Source of the DNA: Adenophora triphylla var. japonica
Taxonomy: Eukaryota; Streptophyta; Magnoliopsida; Asterales; Campanulaceae
Length of the DNA stretch: 64,000 nt
Direction of reading: 5' to 3'
Assembly (NCBI GenBank): GCA_022495995.1
Contig: JAFEMH010000976.1
Coordinates: 372,001 to 436,000, forward strand
This document shows positions 11,460-38,267 of this stretch, one piece after another. Under the pieces are notes generated by a model. The model ran no database searches, was not told the DNA's origin, and worked only from the letters and a program-made list of their open reading frames with translations. Position 1 is the first letter of the stretch; every line of letters begins with the position of its first letter. The translations under genes were made by a program, and so were the position numbers.

Positions 11460-12686
11460 TTAAGGCATAGATTCAGGCAATTTATGTAATGAAAATGCAA
11501 AATGAGATGCCACAAAGGAATGGGAAGACCCGGGATCTATAAGAATGCGGGCCTTAACTCCTGAGACAGGGACTATACCTCTAATGACAGCATTGGGATC
11601 GACCTCTCCTCTACCCAAGGCGAACACTCGACCTTGCACTCTATCCTTGGGTTTCCCTTCAACGTCTCTTTTCACACCACCACCTTGTCCCCCTTGTCCA
11701 CTACCCGAAGCTTGCTTCTTTTGCCACCTGGGACAATTCTTACGGAAATGGCCTATTGCCCCACACTCCAAACATTTGCCTTGCTTGATCCAACACTTAT
11801 CCTCTGAATGTCCTAGCTTCTTACAATATCCACACAAAGTCCCAAACTGACCTGGAGTCGAACGATTTGTCGGAGCCGCCACATTTCCTCCTCTACCTGC
11901 TCCCGGAGCTGATGTCCTAGACTGCCCTCTATTCTGTCCAAAACCTTGACCTTGGAATCTGTTCCTACTCCCACCTTCAGAATTACTACGATGCTCTTCT
12001 ATATCATTCTCAATCCGGTACGCCATATTCACGGCTGCTTGAAAGTTGATGAAGTCATGCGTCAATAACTGTTTCCGGAACTCCACCCTTAAATCTTTCA
12101 CAAACCGGTAGATTCGTCTCTCCTCTTTCGGCACCAAATGAGGACAATATCGGGCTAATTCTGTGAACTTGGCAGAATACTGTGCTATGGTCATCGTCCC
12201 TTGCTCCAATTTCAAGAACTCGACTTCCTTCTTATCCCTTGTAACCATTGGAATGAAATGATCCCGGAACTTGCGTGTGAAATTCTCCCAAGTCTGCGGT
12301 GTAAGGTCCCGATCCCATCCATCCTTCACTACTTGCCACCAATGCTCAGTAGGTCCTTCGAATTTGAAGACAGCGCATCTCACCTTTTCTGCATCCGAAC
12401 TCTCCATTGCCGCGAAAATCTTATTCATAGCTTCAAGCCATCTCTCCGCCTTCGTCGGATCCGGATCTCCACTGAAACTAGGGGGAGACATCTTCACAAA
12501 CTTCTCTAGGCCATGGTGCCCTTGCCTACCTTCTGGTTGCTGTTGTGCCCTACCTTGATTCTGATTTGTCATATTCTGAAGAAATACTCGGAACATATCC
12601 ATCATTTCGGCATTCGGATTACCAACATTGCCCAAAGCCCGATCCTGATCGCCATCATTTCCCGCCATTAGAACAAACTCCTGCAT
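11460..12686 (-). pseudogene. Tekay gag and protease N-terminus
   Basis: 408 codons. The capsid-type region includes the W-L-E-A-M, F-E-G-P-T-E-H-W-W and F-I-P blocks of chromovirus Gag. Two zinc knuckles follow near residues 288-325 (C-G-Y-C..H..C and C-L-E-C..H..C). The protease begins with I-D-P-G-S-S-H-S-F-V, where proline replaces the usual Ser/Thr after the catalytic Asp; I recall this variant as common in Tekay elements. The frame ends in TAA at 11462-11460 and continues in frame as RT, so gag and pol were once one polyprotein. The start is uncertain: an ATG at 12667-12665 is as likely as the upstream one. Confidence 0.9.
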
Positions 12687-12764: not shown

Positions 12765-12766
12765 AC

Positions 12767-15190
12767 TGTGAGGACCTCGACCCGGAACCTAACACGTGTC
12801 CCGAGCTGGAGCGTCCCCAAACTAACTCAAATCACCTAAACTTTTTAAAACTTTGATTTAACTTACAAACTTAAACATACTTAACATAACTATTTCAAAA
12901 TAACTCTACTCCTCTCCACATTGGAGTAAGAGTTGAATAACTTTGAAAGTAACAACCTGTTTTAGTAACAAAAGATTTCGGTTATAACGTAGAAATTAAG
13001 TTTTATATATACAAACTCCATAAAGTAATTATACCAAAATACACCTTCTATGCCAGCCTATACATACCCCGACAATCCCCAAAATATCACTTCCAAACTC
13101 CTCTCCGCCCTTACTTGGTCGGTCCGCCTGTCTCGGGATCTAAAAACATTAAAGGGAGAGGGGTGAGAATAAATCTCAGCAAGCTATTATGAATGCAACA
13201 ATATGCCAAGTAAGATGCAACACATAACAAGTTGCATATAACACATTGGAGAAACAGTAAACACTTTACATTACCTCAGTTTACCTTTTCCCGTCTGAAC
13301 AATAGTCGTACAACATTGGATATAAAATTCCAGTGAACTGCTTGATCATTATACACTTCTTATAAGACCCGTGTTTCAGGGAACCATATAAGATAGTAGC
13401 AACTCTGTAAGGCTTTTGGCTCAATACAGATGCTATAACCCCGACCTGTGGCCACAGGAGGGGACGGTCACATGTATAACGTAATCCGATCACATTAGGT
13501 CACACTTCCATAATTGATCGTATTATGTTATACCCCCAATCATCAGCTGATTAACACAATTCAAGCACATAATAGTTACTTGAAATAAAATCCACAAATG
13601 GGATAAGCAATATAGCCACATGGTAAAATATACTCATGTTCAATAATATCATAGTGTAACATTTATATAATGCACTATGCATCGTACAATCAATGAATAT
13701 GTATGCAAGTAAGGTAACAAGGTATCATCAACCACCCTACATAGTTAATATACAACAATACATGGCCTCTATAAAGACCCAAGTTCAATTTACCAAGTTT
13801 GAGTCACAATGGTTAAGTTACCAAACAAGGCTATCAAGCGTTTTCCAAGCCATTTTTCAAGTACTTCCATAATTCCATTTTTATCAATTAAGATGTCATT
13901 GTGTAGCCCAAGTATTCTACTTTAATCTAGGTTAAAGAGGATTCAATTTGGTTCTAGTTTGGATAGGTTTAAACAGCTCTAAAGTTGGTTCAAAGTCACC
14001 AGGCCAGGGCACGACTCGTGCCCCTTTGACCTTTCCCAGATTCATGCGTCCCTCAGCAAGGCACGACTCGTTATTTCCACAGGGCACGACTCGTGCCTCA
14101 GGGCACGACTCGTGCCATTTCAGCCCAAGTTGATCAGAACGAATTAACCTCTATTTCACGAGTCGTCTCCACGAGTTGGCCATGGGCACGACTCGTGCCA
14201 AGGGGCACGACTCGTGCCACGGCCAGATTCAGGTACCAACAGCAGCTTTAAATCAATATTTCAAGAAACCAAAATCCAACCCAAGCTTCCTCTAAATTGT
14301 GAACACAAGAAAGTTTACTAACTTCACCAATCTCATACTAAATCATTCCTAATCACATAAGATAGATTTGACCTATTTAATACTTAGTTGTTTTAATCCT
14401 TAAACTACCCATTTCATATTTAACCTTTCTATTTCCATTTAGACCATACTCTTTCTTCTTTATCAACCTTCATGAACATCAATCTTGTATCTAGTTCATT
14501 AAACAATTTCTCTACTCCAAGGAAGTGTCCTAACCTTTCAAACAACATTTATAACAACTTTATTAACATCAAATATTCCATGAACATTTATTTGAAGGAA
14601 AGTCATAATAACTCACCTTAGAAATATGGGATGGATTAAGGATTTTCTTAGCTTGATGTGCTCTCCTAGTTGGCCCGAACACGAAAGTACAATCGGATTG
14701 TCAAATGGATAAGAATTGAATGCCCTAGGAACTTGGAAGGGGAGGTTCTCATGGAAGAGTTCCATGGAGATTTTTGGGAGGAAGGAAGAAGAAAATGATG
14801 AGGGGAAAATGGGGAGGTATGGGAGAGTTTGAAAATAGGGGAAGTGGTGAGGGAAAAAAGGGGTCATGGCCCCCCATGACTTCATTAAAGGAAGTCTTCC
14901 CACAAAAGGCAATTTGGTCCTCCAAGGTTAAGGATATAACAACAATCACCTTAACTTCTCTCTTTTACACAAGACAACCTAGCTATTTATATTTTATTTA
15001 TTTTCAATTACTATATTTCAACAAAATACTTTAACTCATTCCCATTTAATCCTAAGGCCTTAAAAATTATTTCCCATCATCTTACTTAACATAAGAAATC
15101 AAAGACATAAAATGAGCACATAAGGTCAACAATAATATAAAAAGCATATAATATGATACTAAAATAGTGCCTAGGGTTAGGGTCATTATA
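12767..15190 (-). repeat. Tekay 5' LTR
   Basis: 2424 bp; starts TGTGAGGACCTCGACC and ends GGGTCATTATA, where the other LTR ends GTTACA, so the terminal dinucleotide is mutated. Flanked by TSD ATCAC at 15191-15195. Confidence 0.9.
14006..14219. repeat. Cluster of GGCACGACTCGTGCC near-palindromes (5' LTR)
   Basis: Counterpart of 7022-7233. Copies lie near 14006, 14060, 14082, 14101, 14185 and 14202. The distribution differs: one copy instead of two at the left, and an extra one in the middle. Confidence 0.85.
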
Positions 15191-15195
15191 ATCAC

Positions 15196-16145
15196 AGAAG
15201 TCAAATGAAACACAAACATCAAATAACACTGTCCATGAGATAATAAATATGGACTTGCCAAAAAGACCCATTTCATAAATCGAATATCAATCGCTTATGT
15301 TTCACAGTTCAATTTCCTAATTATGTTCGGGTCCAGTGGGAGAACAATGACCGAAACAAATAGTTGGTCGCCCTCAACGGAGCCGACCCAACTCGAACAC
15401 AATAACTGAGACCACTGCAACCGTCACATAATTAGCCCCATAGAACCATTTCATATAACAAATCTCATTATTTTGAGAACCAAATCACATAAGCATGCTT
15501 TCAATACCATAATAATATTTACCGAGCAAATCCGAAGCCAAAGCAAGTATCAAATCAGATCGAACAATAAACAAACGTGTCAATAAAGAGGAGTACGACG
15601 ATAATAGGGGTATAAATAAAATGACTAAACTGACACAGAATCAATACTGCATAGTCTCCTTACCTCAAAACTGCTAAAATCGGATCACCAAACTAATCTT
15701 CAAACCAAAAGCATCTTCGGATCAGGCTTTAAAAATACTAGTTAACCTTCATTTTCTCTCTCGGTAGAAGGATACCCCAATTGTAATCCAAACAACATTT
15801 TAATGCCATCAATGTAATCCATCAGCTACTTGAATATTTGATGAGTCACGAAATGCTATAGCAAACCGCATCCAGTAAAGCCACGTCAAGTAGCCTAGTG
15901 TCAATTTTCCATGCAACTAATCTAAACTAATGGGTCCCACAATCCAAAGCCACATTCAACTATTTTTCAAACAAATTCGTCCCATATATCTTTTATTATT
16001 ATTATTATTATTATTCCATCCGCCTCATAATAAAATGCTACTTACCCAAAAATTACTAATTATTATTATCATCTTTAAAATAATAACGTTGTTTTAAAAC
16101 ACAAATATATATACTCAAAATGGAACAAATAATTGGGGTGTCACA
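15196..16145 (-). repeat. Array LTR copy e, right part
   Basis: LTR copy e resumes after the Tekay TSD and ends GGGGTGTCACA. (TTA)n of about eight units near 15992. Confidence 0.85.
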
Positions 16146-16281
16146 TTCTCCCCTCCTTAAAAAGAATTCGCCCGCGAATTCGATTTAGACTAAACCTCAA
16201 ATTCATATCATACTAATCCCCCAAGATCCTATAAACGGCCGAGCTCAAAAGCCTTCCGGCCGGTCCCGCTCTGATACCAAC
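16146..16281 (-). promoter_or_regulatory. Array internal segment 5 (PPT and PBS)
   Basis: Same PPT-to-PBS layout; the next LTR starts at 16282. Confidence 0.8.
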
Positions 16282-17443
16282 TGTAACGCCCCGAAAATTT
16301 CACATGCTTATATTTCCATAAATGTTCAAATATTACAAGTTTAAAATCTCCAAAAATATGATACAAGGTAATTCTACTAACTCCAAAATGCTCCTAAACT
16401 GCTCTGAGCCCAAATCTGCAATTAACTGCAAAATACAAACTGGAGGGGGTGAGCTGGGGAAAGATCAGTAAGAGAGGGGATACGCAGTATCACAGAAGTC
16501 AAATGAAACCCAAACATCAAATAACACTGTCCATGAGATAATAAATATGGACTTGCCAAATAGAACCATTTCATAAATCGAATATCAATCGATTATATTT
16601 CACAGTTCAATGTCCTAATTATGTTCGGGTCCAGTGGGAGAACAATAACCGAAACAAATAGTTGGCCGCCCTCAACGGAGCCGACCCAATTCGAACACAA
16701 TAACCGAGCCCACTGCACCCGTCACATAATTAGCCCCATTGAACCTTTTCATATAACAAATCTCATTATTTTGAAAACCAAATCACATAAGCAAGCTTTC
16801 AATACCATAATAATATTTACCGAGCAAATTCAAAGCCAAAGCAAGTATCAAATCAAACCGAACAAAAAATATACGTGCAATAAAGAGAAGTACGACGATA
16901 ATAGGGGTATAAATAAAATGACGAAACTGACACAGAATCAATACTGCATAGTCTCCTTACCTCAAAACTGCTAAAATTGGATCACCAAACTAATCTTCAA
17001 ACCAAAAGCATCTTCGGATCAAGCTTTAAAAATACAAGTTAACCTTCCTTTTCTCTCTCGACAGAAGGATACCCCAATTGTAATCCAAACAACATTTTTA
17101 TCCATCAATATAATCCATCAGCTACTTGAATATTTGATGAGTCACGAAATGCTATAGCAAACCGCATCCGCTAAAGCCACGTCAAGTAACCTAGTGTCAA
17201 TTTTCCATGCAACTAATCTAAACTAATGGGTCCCACAATCAAAGCCACATTCAACTATTTTTCAAACAAATCCATCCCATATATCTTTTATTATTATTAT
17301 TATTATTACTCCCTCCGCCTCATAATAAAATGCTACTTACCCAAAAATTACTACTTATTATTATTATCATCTTTAAAATAATAACGTTGTTTTAAAAAAC
17401 AAATATATATACTCAAAATGGAACAAATAATTGGGGTGTCACA
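16282..17443 (-). repeat. Array LTR copy f
   Basis: Outermost right LTR. It starts TGTAACGCCCCG, ends GGGGTGTCACA and is followed by the second TAGAA. Confidence 0.85.
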
Positions 17444-17448
17444 TAGAA

Positions 17449-19200: not shown

Positions 19201-19430
19201 AAAAGATCAATACACTTCTTTAAACAAGAAAGCATCATAGTAATGAGCTCCGTGCCTCGAGTTATATTTCAAGTGTAAAGATAAAGTGATTTATGCCTTT
19301 CAAGTAGGGTACACTGTAGTAGCGAACTCCATGTCCCTAATACTAAGCATAACTCACCTCATACATTCTCATTGGCAAGAGTACATCGTTGCAGCGAACA
19401 CCGTGCCTCGAGCTCGAGAGAATAGTATGA
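19201..19430 (-). other. Three stem-loop modules in the SIRE spacer
   Basis: Three related modules A (about 19211-19277), B (19286-19357) and C (19359-19430). Each has an inverted-repeat stem around a related apical sequence (GGCACGG..GTTCGCT..ACGATG in element sense). Stems: A TACACTT/AAGTGTA; B 11 positions with one mismatch; C 12 bp with one bulged A. The stems differ in sequence but all pair. Modules C and B match, in the same order and spacing, two modules in the Athila-like element at 26607-26747. Function unknown. Confidence 0.7.
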
Positions 19431-19696
19431 AACAATTGCCTTTGTCTTTTATTTATCATTAAGAAAGATTAGTGACAAATGTCACTTTTAGCATGTGAAG
19501 GGGAATGATATCAAACATGTTAACCAAAGTAATAACCTACCATAACAAAAAGGTCAGCATGTGCCACGGTTAGAACTAAGCTAACCAGATAAAAAGAATA
19601 TAAAAGCATTTTTTTTTAAATAAAGAAAAAAATACACTAATATACAAGTGTTACCCTGAGTGATAACATCACCTGGAGTAGCACTGACAAACAGAC
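19431..19696. other. SIRE non-coding between stem-loop cluster and pol stop
   Basis: AT-rich; holds a poly-T run and one copy of the SIRE word set (GTGATAAC..AGTAGCAC) at 19651-19690. No gene. Confidence 0.4.
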
Positions 19697-21608
19697 TCAG
19701 AGATTACAAAGACCAAGAGATCTTTTCAAACTAGAAAATCTCTCGTGGTCTAAGGCCTTGGTAAAGATGTCAGCCAGTTGATACTTAGTATCAATATGAT
19801 CAATGTTAAGTAGGCCTTTATCTACCATATCTCTAAGGAAATGATGACGTATACCTATGTGCTTAGTACGGGAATGTTGAACATGGTTTTTTGAAATGTT
19901 GATAGAACTCAAGTTATCACAGTACATAGTCAAAGAATTACTCTCTAGGCCATAGTCATCTAGCATATGTTTTAGCCAAATAAGTTGTGAGCAACAACTA
20001 CCAGCTGCAACATACTCAGATTCAGCCGTGGAAAGAGAGACACAATTTTGTTTATGACTATACCATGAAACTAAATTGTTACCCAAGTAAAAGCACCCCC
20101 CACTAATACTCTTCCTATCATCCATATCCCCCGCCCAATCCAAGTCGCTAAAGCCTACCAAATTGGTGTTAGTATCCTTACTAAACCAAATCCCTAATTC
20201 ACTTGTTCCCGTAACATATTTAATTATTTTTTTGATAGAATTAAGGTGGGAGACTTTAGGATTGGCTTGATAACGTGCACAGACGCACACGCTAAACATG
20301 ATATCAGGATGACTAGAAGTGAGATAGAGAAGGCTACCTATCATAGAACGATATAAAGTAGGATCAACATCCTCACCTGCTTGGTCTCTACCAAGTTTAA
20401 GAGAAGAACACATAGGAATTTTTGAACTCTTTGCCCCCTCCAACCCAAACCGTTTCACTAGGCTTTTTGCATACTTGCTTTGTGAAATAAATATCCCTTC
20501 ACTTGATTGTTTCACCTGCAAGCCTAGGAAGAATGTTAACTCACCAATCATGCTCATTTCAAATGTTGACGTCATAGCCTCTATAAAATATTTTAAACAA
20601 GTTTGAGAAGTAGAGCCATAGACTATGTCATCAACATAGATTTGAACAATGACTGTTTCTTTTCCATGCCTTAGGATAAATAAAGTCTTACCTGCTTCAC
20701 CTCTTGTAAAACCATATTCAAGTAAGAAAGAGGTAAGGCGACCATACCACGCACGTGGAACTTGTTTCAAGCCATATAAGGCTTTATCAAGTCTATATAC
20801 AAGGTTTGGTAGATGAGGATCTTCAAATCTTTTTGGTTATTCAACATAAATTTCTTCTTTTAAATAACCATTTAAAAAGGCAGCTTTAACATCCATTTGA
20901 AACAAGGTAATTTTTAGATAATAAGCTATTGCCAAGAGGAGTCTTATGGATTCTATTCTAGCAACGGGAGCAAAGGTCTTATCAAAGTCAGCACCTTCAA
21001 TTTGGGTGTAACCTTGAGCTACGAGACGAGCTTTGTTCCTAACAATATTTTCTTGCTCGTCTGATTTATTTTTAAAAATCCATTTTGTACCAATTACATT
21101 AGTGTTAATGGGACGTGGTACTAAACACCAAACTTCATTACGAGCAAATTGTTCAAGTTCCTCTTGCATGGCATGTACCCAAAAATTATCTTTTAAAGCT
21201 TCAGAAATATTTTTGGGTTCTAAAGAGGAAACAAAACAGGAATATTTTATCTTATGGTATGTGGTGGACATGCACACATACCTCACCATTTCACGGTTAC
21301 TAAAGGGCTCATTGTTCCTTGTTCGTACCCCTTCATTTGCTTCTCCAATAATCTGAGAAGAAGGATGATCTCTTCTGATCCTAGCTGGTGGATCCCTGCT
21401 TAAATCTTCATGCACATGAGCATCATCATCAGACTGTTCGTCATTTTCAGTTGCTGAACTGGTCTCAGGTGATACCGGAGATGCTATCCCTTCAGTGGTA
21501 ACACATTGGTCAGCACCCGTGGTATCACTTGCTTTACTTTGTTCCTCCAGCTCTTTCAGCAATATCAAAGGAGATTCCTGCATTCCATCACCTGTAACAC
21601 TTGCTAAG
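19697..21608 (-). pseudogene. SIRE reverse transcriptase and RNase H
   Basis: Minus-strand copia pol C-terminal half. From 21608 down: an acidic linker, then RT with W-I-F-K-N-K, A-R-L-V-A-Q-G, V-A-R-I-E-S-I-R and D-V-K-A-A-F-L-N-G, then a TAA directly after E-E-I-Y-V-E near 20836. It continues in frame through G-L-K-Q, catalytic Y-V-D-D-I near residue 48 of the lower segment, and RNase H (S-A-E-S-E-Y, Y-C-D-N, H-S-R-T-K-H, D-I-F-T-K-A-L), stopping at 19697. The upstream end abuts the TSD CTAAG of the Athila-like insertion; the frame continues into the integrase at 28841. Apart from the stop the domain is well preserved. Confidence 0.9.
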
Positions 21609-23173
21609 TGATAAGTGACTATTATATAGTCATTTATCCTTATTTTTATATACTTTTTATTGCATAAATCATCATTTCTCATTTCATTTCATATACTTTT
21701 TAGTTCCTTTTCCTCATTTTCTAGATTTTACGCTTTTGGTATTTTTCTTGCTTTTTAAGACAGGTTTTAGGTTCATTTTTATCAAAAGGATACTTGGACA
21801 CTTCAAGGCAAAAGACTTGGGAGAGCACCAACCAAATCAAGCACACAAAGTTAAAATTCAGACAGAGCGGCCGTGCAGCAAAGATGGAGCGGCCGTGCAC
21901 TTGGCCTTTTCGGGCCATTTTTGGCCCTAAATTATAGAGTGGCCGTGTCTTGAAGAGGAGCGCCCGTGTCATCTTATGGAGCGGCCGTGCGGCTTATATA
22001 GGAGCGGCCGTGCGAAGTGTCAAGACTTAAATTCAAATACGGCGCCAAGGGTCACACGGCCGTGCAACTTCCTTGACGCGGCCGTGCAAAAGCGCTGCGA
22101 GACGTAAAGGCACCTTTTGGTTGCACCCGATTGAAGAGTTCCCTCCTTTTTATAAATAGGACCCTAGTGATCAGTCTAAGAAACGAATTATTAGAGAGAA
22201 ACTACTGATATTAGATAGATAGAAAACACAAATACTTGTGATAACAATTTCCAAGGAGATTTGAAGATCAAGTCATTATTTTGTTCTTGAAGTCACTTTG
22301 GAAGAAGAGCAATAAAAGTGAAACATTATTTCCAGCATTTGTTCATCATAAGTCTTTCTTACTCAATCTCTTATTTTAATTGCTTATATATTATAAATGG
22401 CTTGTGAGTAATCCCCCATATTCTTGGGGTTAGAAACTCAAAAGCATGCTTATTCATCATCTAAAAATGATTAGTCTTGTCTTCTTTCTTCATCTAAAAC
22501 AATCTCTTTATATTATTCTCTAAATGCCTTACTTATTGGCGATATCCAATTTGTATGATTCAGTCAATTGAGAGAAGTACCTAGCGGAGAATCTCAATTG
22601 ACGGAACCATATAAAGAAACTAGGTTTATTGATCACGAGAGTAGTTCAATGGCCTAGGGATGTTCCTTTAATGGAAAGTATGTTGACTTCCGTCCTTAAT
22701 GGATTCTTACTAATTATGGTCAGCTAGAGATAAGCCGGAATGCCCGTTTGTGACGGGCGGGGCAAACATAAACGGATTTCTCAAACGGTTAGGACATAAT
22801 TAGTGAAGAATACAAACGCTATTGTCCTAGCCCGAAATAGCGTAGGCCTAACATACCATCCTTGCTTTTTATGAAAACCTTTTATTTCTAAGACAATGAC
22901 AATTTGATGAATAAGAATATGTGTATGATTTCCAATCCCAAGAATGCTTCGTTTTATAAGATTTAAATTAAAAGTATTTTCTGTTTATGATCTCTCTATT
23001 ATTCTAAAAACAAATTTTATCTACCCCCCAATCCTTTCTATATTTTCTAAAAGACAAAAATATCCCTTAAGTAAACCCTGTCTCTGTGGGATCGACTCGT
23101 ACTTGCACCCGCTATATTACAATAGCCCGTGCGCTTGCGGATATAAAATAAACCGTTAGGTTTCGACCGAACA
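21609..23173 (+). repeat. Athila-like element 5' LTR
   Basis: Starts TGATAAGTGACTATTATA and ends TTTCGACCGAACA. It holds the GCGGCCGTGC motif cluster at 21864-22090; a TATA-like TTTTTATAAATAGG at about 22147 is a likely promoter element. Confidence 0.9.
21864..22090. repeat. Cluster of (GA)GCGGCCGTGC motifs (5' LTR)
   Basis: About eight copies or near copies of GCGGCCGTGC or CACGGCCGTGCA separated by unique spacers. The core CGGCCG is a palindrome. The cluster lies just upstream of the TATA-like sequence. Confidence 0.85.
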
Positions 23174-23179
23174 AGTTTT

Positions 23180-23197
23180 TGGCGCCGTTGCCGGGGA
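23180..23197 (+). promoter_or_regulatory. Athila-like element primer binding site
   Basis: TGGCGCCGTTGCCGGGGA, six bases after the LTR. Typical of the Athila/Tat group (usually assigned to tRNA-Asp). Confidence 0.85.
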
Positions 23198-23327
23198 CAA
23201 CGGTTTACTTTTTATTTTTGTCTTTACTACAAAATTTTTTGTTTTTTATTTTATTTTTACTATTTTGCTTTCTTGTCCTATAATCTGTTACGTTTAATTT
23301 TTCTTCAAAGTGTTTTTCTTGTAGTTT

Positions 23328-25826
23328 ATGAAACGGTCTCGGACATTCGTTGACAACTTTGATCCGGAACCCGAAAGAAGCTTTCACGAAAGATTAAGAA
23401 GATTTAGAGAAACTTTGGATAAACACATGGACGGAGAACCGCAAACACCTGCTAGGACCCTACGGGACTTTGTTAACCCAAGTACCCCGGGAACTAGATC
23501 CCCTATTGTTGTGCCGAATGCCGAAGCGACACACTTTGAGATAAAGCCGCGACTTTTGCTTATGGTTATGAATAACCAATATAGCGGCACTGCTTTCGAA
23601 GATCCTCATCTCCACATCCAAACATTCTTGGAATACTGTGATACCACACGTATTCAGAATGTTACCCCGGAAGCAATTCGGATGCGCCTTTTTCCTTTCT
23701 CTCTTAAGGATAAGGCGAAACAGTGGTTAATTTCAGTCCCACCCAACTCCTTTACAACTTGGGACCAAATTCAAGAAGCATTCCTTGGACGTTTCTTTCC
23801 TCCGAGCAAGACTGCTCAAATTCGGACGAAGATTACAAATTTTAGCCAAACAGGAAGCGAATCACTGTATGACGCTTGGGAGCGATTCAAAGAGCTCCTA
23901 AGGATGTGCCCTCACCACGGGCTTGAAAAGTGGTTAATTGTGCATACTTTCTACAATGGTCTCACACATGGAACAAGGGAGACAATTGATGCCGCCGCAA
24001 GAGGTGCACTAATGAATAAGACGGTGGATCAAGCATACGACTTGATAGAGAACATAGCCCTGAATCACTATCAATGGTTCAATGAGAGGGAACAACCGCA
24101 GGGGATTCCAGGTAAGTACAATATTGATGTCATTACTACCTTGTCTTCTAAAGTTGATATGCTTCTTAAAAAATTTGAAAACTTTAATGTAAATCCTGTG
24201 GCCAACATTAATGTTGTTTGTGAACTATGTGGGTCGAACTCACATAGTACAGAATGTTGTGAATTTCTTGACACTACTTCTAGTGATCAAGTAAATTTTG
24301 TTAATTCTTATGGGGGAAATGGTGGTATGTATTCAAACACATACAATCCCGAGTGGAGAAATCACCCTAATTTTTCCTATAAGAATAACAATATTTTAAA
24401 CCCACAACCTTCTACACAACCACCGGGATTTACACAAAAGAATTTCAATGGCAATTCTAATGCTTTCCCTCCCCCTAAGTCTAAATTGGATCTTATTATG
24501 GATTTTATGATTGAAAGTAAGAATGAGCAAGAAAAGACCAATAATGAGTTAAGGGAATCCATAAAGTCGTTGAATGCTAGGTTTGATAATTTAGCCGCCC
24601 ACAATAGAATGCTTGAAAATCAACAAGCTCAACAAACCGGTACCTCGCATAGACCACAAGGGAGTTTTCCCGGTCAATCGCAAAGGCCCGATGAGCATGT
24701 TAGTGCGGTAGAAACTAGGAGTGGAAAAGAAATTGTAGATCCCCTTCCTAAGGAAAATATCAAACCAAATAAGGAGAACGTTAGTCCGACCCCACCTATG
24801 GTTGAGACTAATGAAGATGTTGAAAATGGGACAGAATCCCCTAAGATTTCTAGAAATTTTGACCCTCCAATACCATACCCCCAAAGGTTGGTAAGAGCCA
24901 AACTTGACAAACAATTTGCAAAATTTTTAGAAGTCTTAAAATCTATTTACATCAACATACCTTTTACCGACGCCCTTCAACCAATGCCGTCCTATGCTAA
25001 GTTCTTAAAGGATATTCTTGCAAATAAGAGGAAACTTGAGGAGCATAAGACTGTCGCTTTGACAGAAGAAGTAAGTGCCATTTTACAAAGAGAACTTCCT
25101 CCTAAATTAAAAGATCCCGGCACTTTCTCTATTCCTTGCAAAATAGGTAAATATAATGTTGATAATGCTTTGTTAGATCTTGGGGCAAGTGTGAGCCTCA
25201 TTCCGCTTTCGATAGGTAAGAAACTAGGTGAAGGGGAAATGAAACCCACCACTATTTCTCTCCAACTAGCGGATCGTTCCATTAAATACCCGGTGGGTAT
25301 TATGGAAGACGTCCCTTGTCAAATTGGGAAATTGATCATCCCGGTTGACTTTGTAGTTCTTGATATGGAGGAAGATCACCAAATTCCAATCATTCTAGGA
25401 AGACCTTTTCTTGCCACCGCTGGTGCAATAATAGATGTAAAGAATGGCACTCTTTCTTTAAACATTGGAAATAAGAAAGTCGAATTTAAAGACTTAAATC
25501 TCAAGAAATCGTGCCATGAAGTTGACCCTCCTAAGAATGATAACAAGAAGAGTGAAAACTCGCAATCAAAGGACTCAAAAATATTAATTAAAAAGCCCTT
25601 AGATCATAGTGGTGAAAAAAATGTGCACCCTAAAAAGCATAATAAGGTTCAAAAATCAAAAGGTAGGGGGCCTAAGAAAAAAGGCACACCGGGATGTCGC
25701 ATGTGCATCAATTATAAGAGCTCAATCACGCCAAAGGGCAAGGAATGGCGAGTTGTCAAGGATAAGAGACCATTACAATACCACTCATCGCCCATTTTTA
25801 CTAAAAGAAAGGGGTCGAGCTTATGA
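23328..25826 (+). CDS. gag-pro: Athila-like Gag-protease polyprotein (intact)
   Basis: 832 codons, the longest intact ORF in the window. The start ATG at 23328 follows a 130-nt leader after the PBS and is the first in-frame ATG. The capsid part (residues about 70-250) has F-E-D-P-H-L-H-I..F-L-E-Y-C-D-T, K-A-K-Q-W-L, W-D-Q-I-Q-E-A-F-L-x-R-F-F-P and L-Y-D-A-W-E-R-F-K-E-L-L-R-x-C-P-H-H, typical of Athila Gag. A zinc knuckle C-x2-C-x4-H-x4-C lies near residue 300. A low-complexity linker follows, then an aspartic protease near residues 610-720 with L-D-L-G-A-S (the Athila variant of D-S/T-G) and I-L-G-R-P-F. The tail is Lys-rich. No frame damage is visible. It would build capsids and mature them in the cytoplasm. 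Confidence 0.92.
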   Translation: MKRSRTFVDNFDPEPERSFHERLRRFRETLDKHMDGEPQTPARTLRDFVNPSTPGTRSPIVVPNAEATHFEIKPRLLLMVMNNQYSGTAFEDPHLHIQTFLEYCDTTRIQNVTPEAIRMRLFPFSLKDKAKQWLISVPPNSFTTWDQIQEAFLGRFFPPSKTAQIRTKITNFSQTGSESLYDAWERFKELLRMCPHHGLEKWLIVHTFYNGLTHGTRETIDAAARGALMNKTVDQAYDLIENIALNHYQWFNEREQPQGIPGKYNIDVITTLSSKVDMLLKKFENFNVNPVANINVVCELCGSNSHSTECCEFLDTTSSDQVNFVNSYGGNGGMYSNTYNPEWRNHPNFSYKNNNILNPQPSTQPPGFTQKNFNGNSNAFPPPKSKLDLIMDFMIESKNEQEKTNNELRESIKSLNARFDNLAAHNRMLENQQAQQTGTSHRPQGSFPGQSQRPDEHVSAVETRSGKEIVDPLPKENIKPNKENVSPTPPMVETNEDVENGTESPKISRNFDPPIPYPQRLVRAKLDKQFAKFLEVLKSIYINIPFTDALQPMPSYAKFLKDILANKRKLEEHKTVALTEEVSAILQRELPPKLKDPGTFSIPCKIGKYNVDNALLDLGASVSLIPLSIGKKLGEGEMKPTTISLQLADRSIKYPVGIMEDVPCQIGKLIIPVDFVVLDMEEDHQIPIILGRPFLATAGAIIDVKNGTLSLNIGNKKVEFKDLNLKKSCHEVDPPKNDNKKSENSQSKDSKILIKKPLDHSGEKNVHPKKHNKVQKSKGRGPKKKGTPGCRMCINYKSSITPKGKEWRVVKDKRPLQYHSSPIFTKRKGSSL

Positions 25827-25954
25827 CCTTAAACAAGCATCATCGGAATAGTAAACCGATGGATTATATTACTATTTATCATAATTTTGTTTTCCATCGC
25901 ATGCTTATCTTTTTACTCTTTGTTCCTTGAAACATTGAGGACAATGTTCATTTC

Positions 25955-25970
25955 AAGTGTGGGGGGGTAA
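25955..25970 (+). promoter_or_regulatory. Internal polypurine-like tract
   Basis: AAGTGTGGGGGGGTAA, almost the same as the terminal PPT at 27256-27270. It could be a second plus-strand primer or a leftover of a deletion. Confidence 0.55.
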
Positions 25971-26606
25971 ATCTATCCTTTTATTTTTCGCTTTATTTTT
26001 CGCTTTCTAGTTTTTAAATTTTACTTGCTTTCTAGGATAGATTTAATTGCTTTCTAGTATAATTTTTCTTTTTTTTAACTTAGTTGCATTTTTTTTTCTT
26101 TTACGCATGTATAATAGTATATAAAAAAATTAAATCCCTATGATGATCAAAAATCATTATCATTATGCTTGCCATTTGCCCTAGTATGAATGCCTATTTA
26201 TCTTTCCTCTCATATTTTCTATACACTTAGAAATCTATAAAAAGGAAAAGTATAAGGGATCTTTTTAGAAAAAAAAAAATAAAAAATTGAAAGCCTCATA
26301 AGTTGGTATAGCACAATATAGAATCTCATCAAGAAAAATGCATTTGATTAGAAGGAATTCTTTTATGCTTGGTTATATATGCAAATTTTGAATATATTCT
26401 TTTAAGATTGTACATTTTTTATCTTTATTAGATATTTATTCCCTTTTTAGAAGCACCTTTTTGTTTGCATCCCTTGAATCACACCCTTTCATAAATTCCA
26501 TCCTTCCATTTTCAAATCAAGTCAAAGAAAAACACTTCTATCTTATTAATAAAAGGGTGACAATGGTCACCAAACCTTAAAAGCAAAAAGAAACCTATTA
26601 TCTCCT

Positions 26607-26747
26607 AAGTAACTCGGGGCACGGCGTTCGCTGCGACGATGCTTCCTTGCCAAAACGGAAATAATATCCAAAAGTATTCTTGATCTAAGTATTAGGAACA
26701 TGGGGCTCGCGACCACAATGTCTCCTACTTGAAAGGATCAAGAATAA
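26607..26747 (+). other. Two stem-loop modules shared with the SIRE element
   Basis: Module D (about 26585-26670, apex CTCGGGGCACGGCGTTCGCT at 26613-26632) and module E (26675-26746). E has a perfect 11-bp stem TATTCTTGATC/GATCAAGAATA (26675-26685 and 26736-26746). D resembles SIRE module C, and E resembles SIRE module B, in the same order about 80 nt apart. The stems are unrelated in sequence to those in SIRE. Confidence 0.7.
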
Positions 26748-27255
26748 CTTAGGTCTTTTGCAAAAATATAACACGTACAAAAATAAGATAAATTTGTTTG
26801 ACTTTGACGAGATTTTTCCACTACCATCACCCATTCTTCACCCTTGTGATTCAAGAATGTAATACAATTCTTCGGAACTTCTAAATTGTGAATAAAATGT
26901 CTATACATTCTCTTGTACATCTTAAAGAAATAAAATTCATCTTTTCTAAAAAATCACTCTAAAAAGTGATAGCTTTTCCTACCAAGAAGATTCTTCCTTC
27001 TAGCATGCTTTACTTGGTCAAAATTCTATATATGCTATACTAGGTTATTGTCTTGCATTTTATCTCTTTAAAATATCCCTAAAATATTTCTTCCTAAAAT
27101 AAATTTTTTAAAGGTATTCAAAATATGATTAGATAGATAAAAGGCATTATCTACAAGGCATTCAAGGGCTTGCTACTTTATTTCTGAGGGATCAATCATA
27201 TTTTTCTCCCTCTCCATATTTCATTCTAAGTTTGCTTGGGGACAAGCAAAGGTTT

Positions 27256-27270
27256 AAGTGTGGGGGAGTT
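27256..27270 (+). promoter_or_regulatory. Athila-like element polypurine tract
   Basis: AAGTGTGGGGGAGTT directly before the 3' LTR start TGATAAGTG. Confidence 0.85.
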
Positions 27271-28835
27271 TGATAAGTGACTATTATATAGTCATTTATC
27301 CTTATTTTTATATACTTTTTATTGCATAAATCATCATTTCTCATTTCATTTCATATACTTTTTAGTTCCTTTTCCTTATTTTCTAGATTTTACGCTTTTG
27401 GTATTTTTCTTGCTTTTTAAGACAGGTTTTAGGTTCATTTTTATCAAAAGGATACTTGGACACTTCAAGGCAAAAGACTTGGGAGAGCACCAACCAAATC
27501 AAGCACACAAAGTTAAAATTCAGACAGAGCGGCCGTGCAGCAAAGATGGAGCGGCCGTGCACTTGGCCTTTTCAGGCCATTTTTGGCCCTAAATTATAGA
27601 GTGGCCGTGTCTTGAAGAGGAGCGCCCGTGTCATCTTATGGAGCGGCCGTGCGGCTTATATAGGAGCGGTCGTGCGAAGTGTCAAGACTTAAATTCAAAT
27701 CTGGCGCCAAGGGTCACACGGCGGTGCAACTTCCTTGACGCGGCCGTGCAAAACGCGGCTGCGACGTAAAGGCACCTTTTGGTTGCACCCGATTGAAGAG
27801 TTCCCTCCTTTTTATAAATAGGACCCTAGTGATCGAGTCTAAGAAACGAATTATTAGAGAGAAACTACGATATTAGATAGATAGAAAACACAAATACTTG
27901 TGATAACAATTTCCAAGGAGATTTGAAGATCAAGTCATTATTTTGTTCTTGAAGTCACTTTGGAAGAAGAGCAATAAAAGTGAAGCATTATTTCCAGCAT
28001 TTGTTCATCATAAGTCTTTCTTACTCAATCTCTTATTTTAATTGCTTATATATTATAAATGGCTTGTGAGTAATCCCCATATTCTTGGGGTTGGAAACTC
28101 AAAAGCATGCTTATTCATCATCTAAAAATGATTAGTCTTGTCTTTTTTCTTCATCTAAAACAATCTCTTTATATTATTCTCTAAATGCCTTACTTATTGG
28201 CGATATCCAATTTGTATGATTCAGTCAATTGAGAGAAGTACCTAGCGGAGAATCTCAATTGACGGAACCATATAAAGAAACTAGGTTTATTGATCACGAG
28301 AGTAGTTCAATGGCCTAGGGATGTTCCTTTAATGGAAAGTATGTTGACTTCCGTCCTTAATGGATTCTTACTAATTATGGTCAGCTAGAGATAAGCCGGA
28401 ATGCCCGTTTGTGAAGGGCGGGGGCAAACATAAACGGATTTCTCAAACAGTTAGGACATAATTAGTGAAGAATACAAACGCTATTGTCCTAGCCCGAAAT
28501 AGCGTAGGCCTAACATACCATCCTTGCTTTTTATGAAAACCTTTTATTTCTAAGACAATGACAATTTGATGAATAAGAATATGTGTATGATTTCCAATCC
28601 CAAGAATGCTTCGTTTTATAAGATTTAAATTAAAAGTATTTTCTGTTTATGATCTCTCTATTATTCTAAAAACAAATTTTATCTACCCCCCAATCCTTTC
28701 TATATTTTCTAAAAGACAAAAATATCCCTTAAGTAAACCCTGTCTCTGTGGGATCGACTCGTACTTGCACCCGCTATATTACAATAGCCCGTGCGCTTGC
28801 GGATATAAAATAAACCGTTAGGTTTCGACCGAACA
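27271..28835 (+). repeat. Athila-like element 3' LTR
   Basis: 1565 bp, nearly identical to 21609-23173. It carries the matching GCGGCCGTGC cluster at about 27526-27755, with a few point differences in the motif copies. Confidence 0.9.
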
Positions 28836-28840
28836 CTAAG

Positions 28841-29782
28841 TCATCAAAAACAACGTTAACTGATTCTTGAATGGTTTTTAACCTAAGGTTATAAACCCTA
28901 TATGCTCGACTATCCTGAGCATACCCAAGAAATATAGCCTTATCACTTTTAGAGTCAAATTTAGCTAAGTAATCCCGATCATTTAGAACAAAACACACAC
29001 ACCCAAACGTATGAAAATAATGAACTTTTGGTATCCTACCATTCAAAATTTCATAAGGTGTCATTGTAGTACCGGGTCTTAGAAAAACTCTATTGGTCGT
29101 GTGCCATTTCAAGTAAGGTCCTATTTTTCCTTTCAGCCACCCCATTTTGTTGAGGTGTTTTAGGAGCAGAAAACTCATATTTAATTCCTTTTAATTCACA
29201 AAAAGTAAAAAATAATGAGTTATCAAACTCCATTCCACGATCAGACCTTATTCGTGTGATAAGAGCACAAAACATGTTTTTTATTTTAGCATGTAAGACT
29301 TTAAACTTTTCAAAAGTTTCTGATTTTTCTTTCAAAAAATATACCCAAGTAAATCTAGAAAAATCATCAACTATGATAAAAGTATATCTCTTACCTCCTA
29401 AACTGTCTACCTCAACTGGACCCATTAAATCCATATGCATAAGTTGGAAACAGTGAGTTGTCCCAGAATACTCCTCATTGTGTTGGGTAGCACTATGGGA
29501 AGCACTTGTCTGTTTACCTTTGAGACAATCTTCACATATGATTTTCTTACTTATGTCCAGACTAGGTATACCACTTATAGCTTCAGCCTTAATAAGTTTC
29601 ACAATGTTTCGAAAATGGACATGACCCAACTTTTGATGCCACAAGGTAGCATCATCAACTCTCACAGAATGACACACTTGTTTATCCTCAACAAGATAAC
29701 AGCTATTACTTGACCTAGTACCAGTCATAACACAGTTATTGGTACAATAAAAAACTTCACAAGTGTTTTTATTGAATTTCAC
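28841..29782 (-). pseudogene. SIRE integrase
   Basis: Minus-strand copia integrase. From 29782: a GAG-pre-integrase zinc segment (L-W-H-Q-K-L-G-H ... C-E-D-C), then D in H-M-D-L-M-G-P, D in R-S-D-R-G-M-E-F and E in N-G-V-A-E-R-K-N-R-T, so the D,D,E triad is present. A frameshift near 29100 moves the C-terminal part (T-P-Y-E-I-L..F-G-C..F-L-G-Y) to another frame, which runs to the Athila-like insertion at 28836-28840. The linker to RT continues at 21608. Confidence 0.88.
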
Positions 29783-31945: not shown

Positions 31946-32084
31946 TGAAATTGTCACGGCCAGAATCACAAGTGATATCCAAGGTGATAACAGCACCAAC
32001 GATAGCACTTGGGATAGCACACACACACTTCGAAAATAAAAACAATTTTGTAAAAGAGATTGCAGCGGAATAATAACACCAAAA
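31946..32084 (-). repeat. SIRE 5' LTR, inner part
   Basis: 139 bp from the LTR 3' end to the copia insertion; the last five bases CAAAA are one TSD copy. It contains SIRE words (GTGATATCC, GATAGCAC). It continues at 38765. Confidence 0.75.
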
Positions 32085-32574
32085 TGTTGGAACATAAACA
32101 ATCCATTAACCATGAACCGACTCACAACTAGATTAAGAAGAGAAGGAGAAGAAGAAGAAGAATAATACGGAAGCGTGTACCTTGTGATTCCATGATTGTT
32201 CTTAGTTTTGTTCTTGAGTAGAAGAAGGAAGTAGGGAGATAGTACTTCGAAGTAGGGAAGAGTAGATCTTCTAAATGATAGTGCCCACACTTGATCTTCT
32301 TAGTGAATAAAGAGAAGATTTGTGACTGAATTTAGTGAATGAATAATTGTCTCTAAATGGCTGATGGATAGCCTTTATATAGATAGAGAAGGGGCACTTC
32401 ATTTAGGGACTACACCCTTTCGTAAAGAAGGCGGTGAGAAGTTACCATTATGCCCATCATTTAATGGTACTTACACCTAATGGAATTCTACATATTTGGT
32501 CTATACTTTAACATTATTAAATGATTATAACATATGGAATTAAATAACACATATTATTAATCCATGTTCTAACA
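32085..32574 (-). repeat. Copia 3' LTR
   Basis: 490 bp, TGTTGGAACAT to GTTCTAACA on plus. Contains an (AAG/GAA)n purine run near 32137-32163. Confidence 0.92.
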
Positions 32575-32585
32575 ATCTCCCACTT
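32575..32585 (-). promoter_or_regulatory. Copia polypurine tract
   Basis: Minus strand AAGTGGGAGAT directly before the LTR start TGTTAGAAC. Confidence 0.85.
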
Positions 32586-33300
32586 GGATTAATATTAATA
32601 TGTATGTTTTACTAAATAAATTCCTTAATCATTTATAACATGAATGACAAACCTTATGTGCACTTTTATTGTCATCCAACATAATCCCGTCCATTAGTCT
32701 TATAAGTATAGGGACTAAAGGGGCAGTCGTTGTAATTGATTCGCAACTAAACCCACATTAATCACATATATATATCCAACTAAATGACATAGATTAAGTA
32801 TAGATATGTAGCATGGAATATTAATGAATATATATGAAGAATGCATATATATATTCTCCAACTAGTCCTACTTAACCAAATGAGATCAATATAAATAAAA
32901 ACAACATAAAGAAATAGAAAACAACACAAACTCCCACTGATTTAAGCATTATCAAAATTGTTTCACCCATATGAGCAGTATGCTCGTGAAACATCAAAAG
33001 AGATTACGCTTTACAAAATGGATCCAATAACATGGAGTTTGATCCTATAAGTTGTATATCTATTTGTTCATTTTATACTTATTTCTCTTCAACAAGAGAT
33101 ATAACCATATGATATCTTTCGACATCTTTGCATCCACTAAAACATAATCGGAATACTTAATGATCTCAAAATGATCTGATTTTATATACATAAGCATGTA
33201 GTTTAATGTTTTATAGGTACTTCATCATTCTTTTGGATGCGACTTAATGTTCTTCTTTCCGAATTACTTTGGTATTAACCAAGCATCCCAATAATAAATA
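32586..33300 (-). other. Copia 3' non-coding or deleted RNase H region
   Basis: About 700 bp where RNase H would be expected. No D-I-F/L-T-K or other RNase H motif is readable in any minus frame; the DNA is AT-rich with no other recognisable feature. Confidence 0.5.
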
Positions 33301-34093
33301 CAAGATGCATGTACGAGTACGAGACTTGCGCATACATTAAGCTTCCTACCGCCGGTGCATAAGGGATATTTTCCATATACTTGGATTAAAAATTAATTTT
33401 AGGACATTACTTTAAACTGAATTTATCTCCCTTAGAGACAGGGGTGTCATGTGGTTTACAATTTTCCATGCTAAACCTTTGTAATACCTTCTCTATATAG
33501 CTCTTTTGTGATAATCCCAAAATACCTCGTGAATGATCACGATGAATTTAGATTCCCAATACAAAAGATGCCTTACCAAGATCTTTCATCTCAAATTTGT
33601 TTGAGAAATTTCTTAGTTTCTTTTAGAAGGTCCTTATCATTACTAGCATGAAAAATATTATCCAAATATCATCCACATATAAGACCAGAATTATAAATCT
33701 ACTCCCACTGAACTTATGGTACACACAATCTTCACCAAGATTCATTTCAAAGCCAAATGAAAGAATAATTTGGTTAAATTTTAAGTACCATTGACGAGAT
33801 GCTTGCTTAAGCCCATAAATGGATTTCTCAAGTTTACAAACCAGTTGACTAGTTTGATCCAAATTAGTCACCATTTCTGGTTTCTTCATATAGATAGTTT
33901 CCTCAATGTCACCATTGAAAAAAGCTGTTTTAACATACATTTGATGAAGCTCAAGATCATAATGTGCCACTAATGTCATAATGATCATAACAGAGGTTTT
34001 AGAAGATATCGGAAAAAATGTTTCTTTATAATCAATGCCTTCTTTTTTTTGAGTAAATCCATTAGCAACAAGACGTGTCTTATATCTTTTCAT
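33300..34093 (-). pseudogene. Copia reverse transcriptase remnant
   Basis: From 34093: K-T-R-L-V-A-N-G-F-T-Q, then a degraded D-V-K-T-A-F-L-N-G block (Tyr in place of Asp, Phe for Leu), then S-I-Y-G-L-K-Q-A-S-R-Q-W and catalytic Y-V-D-D-I near 33660. The frame ends at 33623; below it fragments of the RT connection can be followed to about 33300 across stops. No RNase H follows. Confidence 0.82.
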
Positions 34094-34225
34094 ATTACCT
34101 TGCTAATCCCTTTTGGTTTTAAATATCAATTTATAACCAATAGGTTTTACACCTTCAGGTAATGGGACAAGATCCCAAATGTCATTGTCTTTCATTGATT
34201 TTAACTCCTCATTAATGGCATTGAT

Positions 34226-35639
34226 TCACTTATGAGAATTAGGACTATTAATGGCTTCATGGAAGGTGATTAGATCATCTCCCACTAAACTTAAGGTGTC
34301 CTTATTCTCCGCAAGATACATATCATAAATATCCGGAATATTACTTCTTCTTTCTCTAGTAGATCTCCTCAAGAGCACTGGTTCATCCTCATTTTGAGGT
34401 TGTTGAATTACCTCATGTACAACATTTTCATGTTGTCCGTTATTTACGGGAGTCTCTATATTAATTTGAATTGTATGTTCTTTGTTGAATTTCAGGTACA
34501 ATTACTTGATTTCCAACAGGAACTAAAGTTTGAGAAACATAGAGTGGTTCCTCTAACTCTTCAAATTCAAAAACATTACTATTTCTCCCACTAAATTCAA
34601 CATCCTCAAGGAACCTAACATTGCCAGTCTCGAAAAATGTTCTAGTTTTCGGGTCATAAAATTTATATCCCCTAGATCTCTCGGCATACCCTACAAAATA
34701 GCTACTAACAGTATTTAGGTCCAGTTTGCCCTCATTAGACCTTATAAGGTCTAGCATCTGCTGGACACCCCCATAAATGAAGATGATTTAAGGACGGTTT
34801 CTTATTCGTCCATAACTCATAAGGGGTTTTGTCGATAGCTTTTGAAGGTGCTCTATTGAGAATATAAGCTGCGGTTTTTAATGCTTCGCCCATAATGAGT
34901 GAGGTAAAGAAGCACAAGAAAACATACTTCTTACCATATCCTTAAGGATTCTATTATGTCTCTCCAATACACTATGCTAGGTTTACCTGGCATGGTGTAG
35001 TGAGGGACAATCCTACACTCTTCAAAAAATAGCGAGTATAAAGGACCCGGACGTTATTCACCCAATACGTTATACCGTCCGTAGTTTTCACTATCATGAT
35101 CGGATTTAACATTCTTAATAGTCTTTCTTATGCCTTAAAAGACTTGAAAACGTCCAATGATTGAAACTTTTACATGAAGAAAATAATGTATCCATAACGA
35201 GAGTAATCATCCATGAACGTAATGAAATATTGTTGACCATTCCATGAAGGATTAATGAATGGTCCACAAATGTCCATATGAATTAATTCCAAGACGTTTG
35301 ATACTCTCAAAGATCCTATTTCCTTTAATGTTTGTAAATTTATTCTTTAAAACACTTAATGCAAAAGTTTTATCCGGAGTATCAAGTTGTTTTAGGATTC
35401 TCTCCGACATAAGCTTTATCAATTCTCCCTTTGGAGATATGACCCAAACGCCTATGCCATAGAATACAATAATTTTCACTTGATAACTTTTGCTTAGTGC
35501 CTTTAGTTTTGGTTTCATTATTATGGGACTCATTCATTTTCTTGACTGTGTCAAGTAAATTAAGATTATCGATATATGACAAAGTACTAGTACCGACAAA
35601 TTTGAAATTTAAAATAAAGATCACATTTATTATTCCCAA
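34226..35639 (-). pseudogene. Copia integrase remnant
   Basis: Pieces in several frames: a GAG-pre-integrase with W-H-R-R-L-G-H (about 35470), a core too decayed for the catalytic residues to be found in one frame, then A-A-Y-I-L-N-R-A-P-S-K-A..T-P-Y-E-L-W..H-L-W-G-C (34917-34735), F-V-G-Y-A-E-R-S-R-G-Y-K-F-Y and the Arg-rich S-T-R-E-R-R linker to RT (about 34350). At least three frameshifts. Confidence 0.8.
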
Positions 35640-35681
35640 AAGAACAAGAGTAACCTTCCTTGTCCAAAATTGTGATAGATA

Positions 35682-36616
35682 TTAAATTCCATCAAAAGAT
35701 GGTACAATGAATGTATTATTTAATACAAAATAATAGCCAGTACTTATCATTAATCTAAAAGTCCCTATGCCTATAACTTCAACCGGATTTCCAGCTTCCA
35801 TATAGATGTATTTCTCATCTTCACTGGGGATTCGGTAATTCAGGCAACCCTGCATACATGAACTAATGTGAGTTGTTGCACCAAATACAACCACTATGTA
35901 TATTAAGGAATTGAAACCAAATTTGTCTTAGTACAAACAAGACCAAATGACATACCATCCTGAATTCGCCATTCACGATACTTATGGTAGTCGTTCTTCA
36001 TGCGAGTAAGGTCCTTGCAAAAGAAGCATTTCTTGACTTTATGATCTTTAAATGATCCCTTATGCTTCTTACTTGCAACCGCAATTTCCTTCCCTCTTCT
36101 CTTAATCCCACGAGAAGAAGTAAATGCTGAGTGAGTACTTTCTAATTTGAGATATTTCATCCTATCTTCCTCTAATGTCATATGTGAAAGTAATCCATTA
36201 ATATTCCACTTTTTCTTTTGACATTTATAGGTCACTTCAAAAGGACCAAATTGAGGAGGAAGATAGATCAAAACTAAGTGCACGAGCAAATCTTCCGAAA
36301 TCTCTAACTTAAGTGCTTTTAGTTTGTTCGAAAGATGAAATAATTCGATAATGTACTCCCGAAGATTTTCGTCACCCTTGTACCGAATGGAAACAAGTTT
36401 CCACAAGAATTCAAGAAAAATCTCAGCATTTTCGATCTCAGAGACATTGTCCAAAAATGTCTCTGAAACTAAATTTTCCATGATCATTAGACTCACGCGG
36501 TTGGACCGTTCCCATTGCTCAACATTTTTCCATTCTATAACGGTATTTCCTTTAGTGAGAGCAGCGGGACTTGATTCCCCAAATGCGTGATCGATGTCCA
36601 TATTGCCTAAGATCAT
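35682..36616 (-). pseudogene. Copia gag and protease remnant
   Basis: 36616-35903 encodes a copia-type Gag (UBN2-like) with L-x-Y-L-P-P-x-F-x-P-F near residue 115 and a damaged zinc knuckle (C-F-F-C present, later Cys/His not in place). Below it, 35894-35682 is protease-like with G-A-T-T-H-I-S, but the catalytic D-S/T-G reads V-F-G, so the Asp is lost. The start ATG lies about 1.6 kb from the PBS. Confidence 0.8.
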
Positions 36617-37680: not shown

Positions 37681-37749
37681 GTCCAGATTGGTGAAAAGTC
37701 ATCATTTTATGAACAGGTTTGAACCAAATAGAGAGAGTCATACCATACC

Positions 37750-38255: not shown

Positions 38256-38267
38256 GCTCTGATACCA
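38256..38267 (-). promoter_or_regulatory. Copia primer binding site
   Basis: Minus strand TGGTATCAGAGC, two bases from the 5' LTR. Confidence 0.9.

Follow-up and report, generated by a model that had tools for sequence, protein, structure and literature searches.

Two retrotransposons of different superfamilies, which we take to be SIRE-like (Ty1/copia) and Athila-like (Ty3/gypsy), lie one within the other in a stretch of the Adenophora triphylla var. japonica genome (contig JAFEMH010000976.1, positions 372,001 to 436,000; the whole 64,000 nucleotides are referred to as the window). The Athila-like element is flanked by a 5-bp target duplication, CTAAG, at 21604-21608 and 28836-28840, and its insertion interrupts the SIRE-like pol, which overlaps the start of its long terminal repeat (LTR) at 21609; a piece of copia integrase lies beyond the insertion, at 29090-29782. 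No Pfam match to reverse transcriptase (RT) or integrase was obtained in the gag-protease open reading frame (ORF) of the Athila-like element. Both elements carry tandem hairpin modules downstream of these genes, three (A, B and C) in the SIRE-like and two (D and E) in the Athila-like element (Table 1).

Table 1. Element features and hairpin modules in the window (R1, covariance model described in the text).
Feature	Coordinates	Strand	Details
SIRE-like module A, type 3 hairpin	19211..19277	-	core 19225-19263; R1 52.3 bits; outer stem 7 bp
SIRE-like module B, type 2 hairpin	19286..19357	-	core 19301-19344; R1 48.3 bits; outer stem 10 of 11 bp
SIRE-like module C, type 1 hairpin	19360..19429	-	core 19376-19414; R1 55.1 bits
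SIRE-like pol, 3' part	19697..21682	-	ORFs 19697-20770 and 20837-21682; Pfam RVT_2
Athila-like gag-only element	21609..28835	+	LTRs 21609-23173 and 27271-28835, 98.8% identical
gag-protease ORF, 832 aa	23328..25826	+	Pfam Retrotrans_gag, Asp_protease_2; sole ORF of at least 150 aa between the LTRs
Athila-like module D, type 1 hairpin	26596..26666	+	core 26611-26649; R1 59.1 bits; outer stem 9 of 10 bp
Athila-like module E, type 2 hairpin	26675..26746	+	core 26688-26731; R1 47.2 bits; outer stem 11 bp, perfect
G-rich tract, probable polypurine tract	27260..27269	+	from sequence; directly before the 3' LTR of the Athila-like element

The first-pass annotation of this DNA had proposed that one pair of stem-loops occurs in both elements, with similar apices carried on stems that differ and yet still pair. 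The module sequences and coordinates it gave were correct, and the two hairpins do lie in the same order at similar spacing, the core starts being 72 nt apart in the SIRE-like (C to B) and 79 nt apart in the Athila-like element (D to E). The outer stems it listed for A, B and E (Table 1) and for C (12 bp with one bulge, that is 11 bp with the bulge and an extra U-A pair at 19359/19430) were confirmed from the sequence and from folds; D, missing from its list, also has an outer stem, formed by 26596-26605 with 26657-26666 and containing one mismatch, which at -7.1 kcal/mol was the weakest among nine stems compared and did not appear when the whole Athila pair (D+E) was folded to its lowest energy. 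The apices are indeed alike, but the likeness is not apical only: approximately 50 nt, bulges and internal loop included, are common to modules of both superfamilies. The first apex, GGCACGGNGTTCGCTGC, gave 3 matches in the window when up to 3 mismatches were allowed, versus 0.02 expected; the second, GTATTAGGNACATGGNG, gave 2 versus 1.51 expected and alone was not beyond chance.

Each module can be folded with an outer stem below an asymmetric internal loop, above which an inner helix is capped by a loop of 5 nt, usually UCGCU. The inner helix has one G.A mismatch and one base, usually a purine, that is bulged; with exceptions, it follows the pattern [GAG or AGGG][RCA][YG] G [NGY] UCGCU [RCN] A [YR] purine [UGY] n [CUC or CCCU]. 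Type 1 modules usually end in CUUGCCAA, type 2 modules start with UUAGG and end in CCUACUUGAA, and type 3 modules usually end in CUUGUUUA or CUUGUAAA; the order was 1-2-3 wherever all three types were present among the arrays printed. A covariance model, R1, was constructed from the five module cores (39 positions, 12 pairs), and at E up to 10 it found only these five in the 64-kb window, with E-values of 1e-12 to 1e-16, a match by construction.

The likeness is not limited to two copies. A core pattern gave 7,599 matches (3,822 + 3,777) in the 2.48-Gb host genome and its reversed form 0 + 0, although the pattern was written from the modules and its match count therefore measures abundance rather than giving independent proof; a narrower pattern gave 341 + 315 matches, and 40 places, the window's included, matched the Athila pair letter for letter across 181 nt, the maximum scored by the search. 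Thirty loci fetched from core-pattern matches represented 21 places with one to three hairpins each: 13 SIRE-like (three modules in nine, two in four), seven, with two modules apiece, whose 3' region or LTR related them to the window's Athila-like element, and L083, an autonomous Athila-like element with one module. Twelve further loci of the L083 family, assigned by eye from their flanks, had two modules in five cases and one in seven; L083 and its relatives (L097-L105, L114, L115 and L089) carry types 1 and 2, or type 2 only, which looks like loss or gain of type 1 within apparently one family. R1 had no match outside the arrays in the window or in five loci of 9.9 kb. The sample is thus one plant genome and about four element families. 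The first-apex excess, the specificity of R1 and the abundance in the genome together rule out a chance origin of whole modules.

Candidates from other collections were rejected. Twenty stretches retrieved from IMG/VR with a short pattern were taken as chance (best R1 14.5 bits); two longer patterns yielded 0 and 1 stretch there, and the latter (L086, R1 24.4 bits), situated in a 670-aa ORF of a 13.6-kb viral contig, was also taken as chance. One pattern had 0 matches in genome_contigs, a prokaryote collection, and three protein scans of IMG/VR found no relative.

Covariation supports the earlier claim of an RNA structure common to the two superfamilies, its role being a matter that we infer. 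Among the five modules 91.7% of cells were paired, and 10 were changed on both sides versus 4.3 after shuffling; among 36 distinct cores the corresponding count was 57 versus 18.4, with 0 of 500 shuffles as high, and the score of 0.392 fell to at most 0.186 when the partner was slid, in an alignment fitted to the model. A structure-free alignment was made of the core plus outer stem of 15 type 2 modules, three of 18 rows with insertions or deletions (L062, L068 and L071) having been dropped beforehand; here 91.9% of cells paired, 44 were changed on both sides versus 16.8 (again 0 of 500 shuffles as high), and the score of 0.311 fell to at most 0.092 upon sliding. In the type 2 outer stems 89% of cells pair and both-side changes occur in 8 of 11 outer pairs, one of which, for example, is A-U in 6 modules, G-C in 5 and U-A in 4. 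The stems therefore change and still pair, as had been claimed, and in each of the three counts covariation exceeded shuffles and slides by 3 of 5 measures. A module's own outer arms had a mean stability of -14.6 kcal/mol versus -5.3 for 72 swapped combinations, the best of which (-11.9 kcal/mol) joined two similar type 3 arms. At the top pair, where the pattern left both letters free, 98 of the first 100 matches listed pair (63 A-U, 14 U-A, 20 C-G, 1 U.G), versus 51% if the letters were independent.

Several points tell against a conserved structure and must be set beside these results. Two of the five measures, the number of pairs showing a both-side change and that of additional pair types, were not above shuffles in any of the three counts; the rows are related, so that shuffles overstate significance, and the structures were proposed from the same sequences. 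Of the 72 swapped arms, 18 equalled or exceeded the weakest own pair in stability, and the own combination was best in its row for seven of nine. The second top pair is nearly fixed, and 10 of the 19 places departing on both sides pair there. Lowest-energy single-sequence folds were computed for 40 arrays with 82 modules. The outer stem formed in 68 of these modules, the inner helix in only 42 and the two together in 39; another inner pairing was preferred by many type 3 and several type 1 modules, and in the window the lowest-energy fold of module A was without the inner helix. The inner helix is carried by covariation more than by energy. Because of this folding result our confidence was lowered slightly, though it remains high: a conserved RNA structure common to both superfamilies is very probable.

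An excess of G.U over A.C on one strand suggests that selection acts on the sense RNA. G.U is acceptable in RNA and corresponds to A.C on the opposite strand. At the outermost R/Y pair, where all four combinations were allowed alike, the first 100 matches listed comprised 48 G-C, 32 A-U, 19 G.U and 1 A.C; over ten pairs of the 36 distinct cores, the first and loop-closing pairs being left out, G.U and A.C numbered 29 and 7. With all 12 pairs the counts were 43 and 25, owing to the frequent C.A at the loop-closing pair, and at that pair the strand test fails: among the first 100 matches listed, C.A (43) was as common as U.G (41), the remainder being U-A (16), with no C-G although the pattern allowed it. 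C.A and U.G can adopt one wobble shape, and the loop-closing pair may therefore be a specific non-canonical pair.

The same evidence bears on two explanations that dispense with a functional RNA. The repeated units have inverted symmetry, and one might imagine a DNA-level element, a site bound as duplex DNA, comparable to the CGG-CCG repeats in Sirevirus LTRs; such a site sits badly with G.U kept and A.C rare on one strand, and with a core conserved while the arms change on both sides, and we regard it as highly improbable. We hold to be just as improbable, even after raising our estimate slightly in view of the inner helix being present in about half of the folds, that the modules are inert homologous DNA, a stretch common through gene conversion or descent with pairing as a leftover. 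Near-identity of the type 1 cores between Athila and SIRE family 2 agrees with this, but gene conversion of inert DNA would not leave unlike stems that still pair after changes on both sides; moreover, type 2 cores are 77-93% identical between families while outer arms are 36-62% and flanks 17-43% identical (within families 95, 90 and 82%, respectively).

The first-pass annotation had left open whether the shared hairpins were gained by recombination or by convergence. Identity of type 1 modules does not follow superfamily: the Athila gag-only family was 0.92 and the autonomous Athila family 0.86 identical to SIRE family 2, whereas SIRE families 1 and 2 were 0.68 identical to each other (type 1 values alone were used, as the comparison's sorting of types 2 and 3 mixed types). 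Being closer across than within a superfamily, type 1 favours exchange. Type 2 is less clear: identity was 0.93 between the SIRE families and 0.79 from these to the gag-only family, a pattern that descent within superfamilies predicts, whereas the autonomous Athila modules were closer to SIRE (0.87-0.90) than to the gag-only family (0.77). For an independent origin in both superfamilies, with one factor to be bound, speaks that the stems are unlike between most families; convergence accounts less readily for approximately 50 nt alike, for types 1 and 2 in one order at spacings so similar, and for the type 1 identity across superfamilies, although so short a stretch might also be kept similar by strong constraint, and we consider it improbable. 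Exchange, perhaps repeated, fits better than convergence, about 50 constrained nt being a thin base for the comparison.

The assignment of the carriers rests on their domains and on general features of the groups. The window's gag-only element has a Ty3-type gag and protease, LTRs and a 5-bp duplication, features general for Ty3/gypsy, and its label Athila is our assumption; in having gag-protease without pol it resembles TR-GAG and other gag-only elements, for which no hairpin array is known to have been described (no search was made under that name). The autonomous Athila-like L083 encodes gag, protease, RVT_1, RNase H and integrase, with an extra ORF matching Transposase_32 upstream of the hairpin. 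The label SIRE is a presumption that rests on the gag of a relative, L085, which has a frame of 638 aa with a CCHC motif and a possible coiled coil, both judged by eye, and a TAG before pol. RVT_2 was found in the window's SIRE-like pol and in L082. A SIRE-like RT had 7,968 protein relatives, and many of the 120 that were listed bore plant names. Sireviruses repeat a polypurine tract (PPT) octamer, AGGGGGAG, before the 3' LTR (PMC2829016; this and the other papers below are cited from parts of their text). This octamer was present downstream of 1 of 13 SIRE-like arrays (L066) and CAAGGGGA downstream of seven others, in a search that covered 1.3-1.6 kb after the 13 arrays (14 rows, L082 repeating L056) with 3' LTR ends not located.

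The array is in sense orientation, downstream of pol in SIRE-like, of the extra ORF in autonomous Athila-like and of gag in gag-only elements. Twelve SIRE-like places had pol within the 3-kb locus, and in all 12 it preceded the array on the same strand. The 3' LTR could be placed in Athila-like elements alone; in that of the window, the array occupies, in sense, the 3' non-coding part of the genomic RNA. A coding repeat was rejected, given stops in each sense frame of all 7 arrays translated. H/ACA small nucleolar RNA was likewise rejected, the best hits scoring 17.4 (opposite strand) and 21.8 bits versus cut-offs of 85 and 80 (boxes H and ACA judged by eye).

Our preferred though tentative reading, drawn by analogy, is that the array, passed between superfamilies, would serve in cis as a binding site for a host protein that takes part in RNA export or stability. 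Its transfer would have occurred perhaps through a switch of template while RNAs of both kinds were being copied in the same particle, and it would be kept as each hairpin binds a host RNA-binding protein; that protein would most likely promote nuclear export and/or stability of the long genomic RNA, in the manner of mouse retrotransposon RNA transport elements. Taken jointly with this mechanism, the proposition that the modules are copies of one RNA hairpin whose outer stem is free to change sequence has, in our estimate, slightly less than an even chance of being right. A host partner is preferred because the Gags belong to different families (Retrotrans_gag in the window's Athila-like element and in L083, Retrotran_gag_2 in the SIRE-like L085), and retention of the array by a gag-only element suggests that it acts in cis. 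A host RNA-binding protein would be the simplest reader of the array, with export or stability the first choice and packaging and translation next. A bolder version makes the array a mobile RNA cassette: a single plant host protein would recognize its tandem hairpins, it would be the first export element known from a plant LTR retrotransposon, and it would have moved between Ty1/copia and Ty3/gypsy, its stems rewritten by compensatory change and its protein-contact apex fixed. This version strikes us as rather doubtful. It counts against any such proposal that function is argued by analogy and that the evidence comes from one plant genome and about four families.

Two other roles for the RNA were weighed against export or stability. 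If Gag itself bound each hairpin, the array would be a packaging signal, and sharing it would admit the other superfamily's RNA to particles or let gag-only elements ride helpers; tandem hairpins kept in the gag-only element and its relatives, and common to co-resident superfamilies, are in keeping with this, but two unrelated proteins, from different Pfam families, would then have to read one hairpin, which makes packaging unlikely to our mind. A 3' translation or RNA-protection element, recruiting a translation factor or blocking decay, has a model in the 3' cap-independent enhancers of plant viruses and would suit a position downstream of the last ORF; its chances appear to be about as slim as those of packaging. 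The ENE of Evade/Copia93, a structured RNA that aids mobility, is an instance of a plant LTR retrotransposon using such a structure (PMC12501189). The hairpin array is like the ENE in being structured RNA of a plant LTR retrotransposon, but the ENE needs U-rich internal loops for a triplex with poly(A), whereas internal loops of the arrays are, for example, UAAGUAUU / GAAAG, with none of the ENE type, and Rfam searches of the arrays returned no family at the gathering threshold; when E was relaxed to 10, the hits were weak, the best having E 0.9 and 0.41, far below the cut-offs.

The closest parallels to the proposed site for RNA export or stability are in animals. RTE, MTE and the constitutive transport element of simian retroviruses have a 3' non-coding position and repeated binding sites. 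The first two, the RTE of mouse IAP and the MTE of MusD, are cis-acting RNA structures of LTR elements that act via NXF1/NXT1 (PMC12786077). The hairpin arrays, whose export role is proposed, resemble them as predicted cis-acting RNA structures in LTR elements; on the other side, the NXF1/NXT1 route is theirs, and plants reportedly use TREX, not TAP/NXF1, as the primary export route (PMC12786077), which counts against the parallel. The same review states that nobody has yet studied RNA export of plant LTR elements directly. Sirevirus non-coding motifs (the PPT octamer, a PPT inverted repeat and CGG-CCG palindromes) are also short and conserved, some of them in the same linker between pol and the 3' LTR, but they differ in sequence and structure.

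As in the first-pass annotation, which knew of none, no earlier description of the hairpins was found among the papers listed in the literature searched; most subscription journals lay outside it, and it included portions of PMC2829016, PMC1142308, PMC6317226, PMC12501189 and PMC12786077. A Ty1/copia motif search with 21 Sireviruses tabulated reports no such hairpins in the portion cited (PMC2829016), so that they may not be general. A compact, repeated and constrained hairpin in thousands of copies would provide a handle on a host protein that these elements may need. If RNA parts have been exchanged between superfamilies, recombination would have taken place between elements usually treated as separate lineages, and the exchange might help explain the mobility of gag-only elements.

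Other features of the window were recorded in passing. Two matches to Rfam snoR71 (RF00097) above the gathering score, at 23818-23923 (minus strand) and 53766-53872 (plus strand), are both antisense to Athila-type gag, the second sitting in a diverged gag match at 54028-53375; RF00097 may describe gag antisense. A second Ty1/copia element (32078-38759) with 497-bp LTRs that are 99.2% identical had no R1 match and holds GCACGACTCGTGCC repeats at 37542-37717. Long direct duplications, mostly 94-97% identical, occupy 256-8209 and 12765-17444; a Ty3/gypsy gag-pol (8655-12686, minus strand) lies between the segments 5780-8209 and 12765-15195, possibly its LTRs. At 47665-48915 lies a 1.25-kb array of the 7-bp unit TAGGGTA (179 copies, 90% matches), which resembles degenerate telomere repeats, and two arrays of a 40-41 bp tandem repeat are located at 56483-56805 and 57907-58282.

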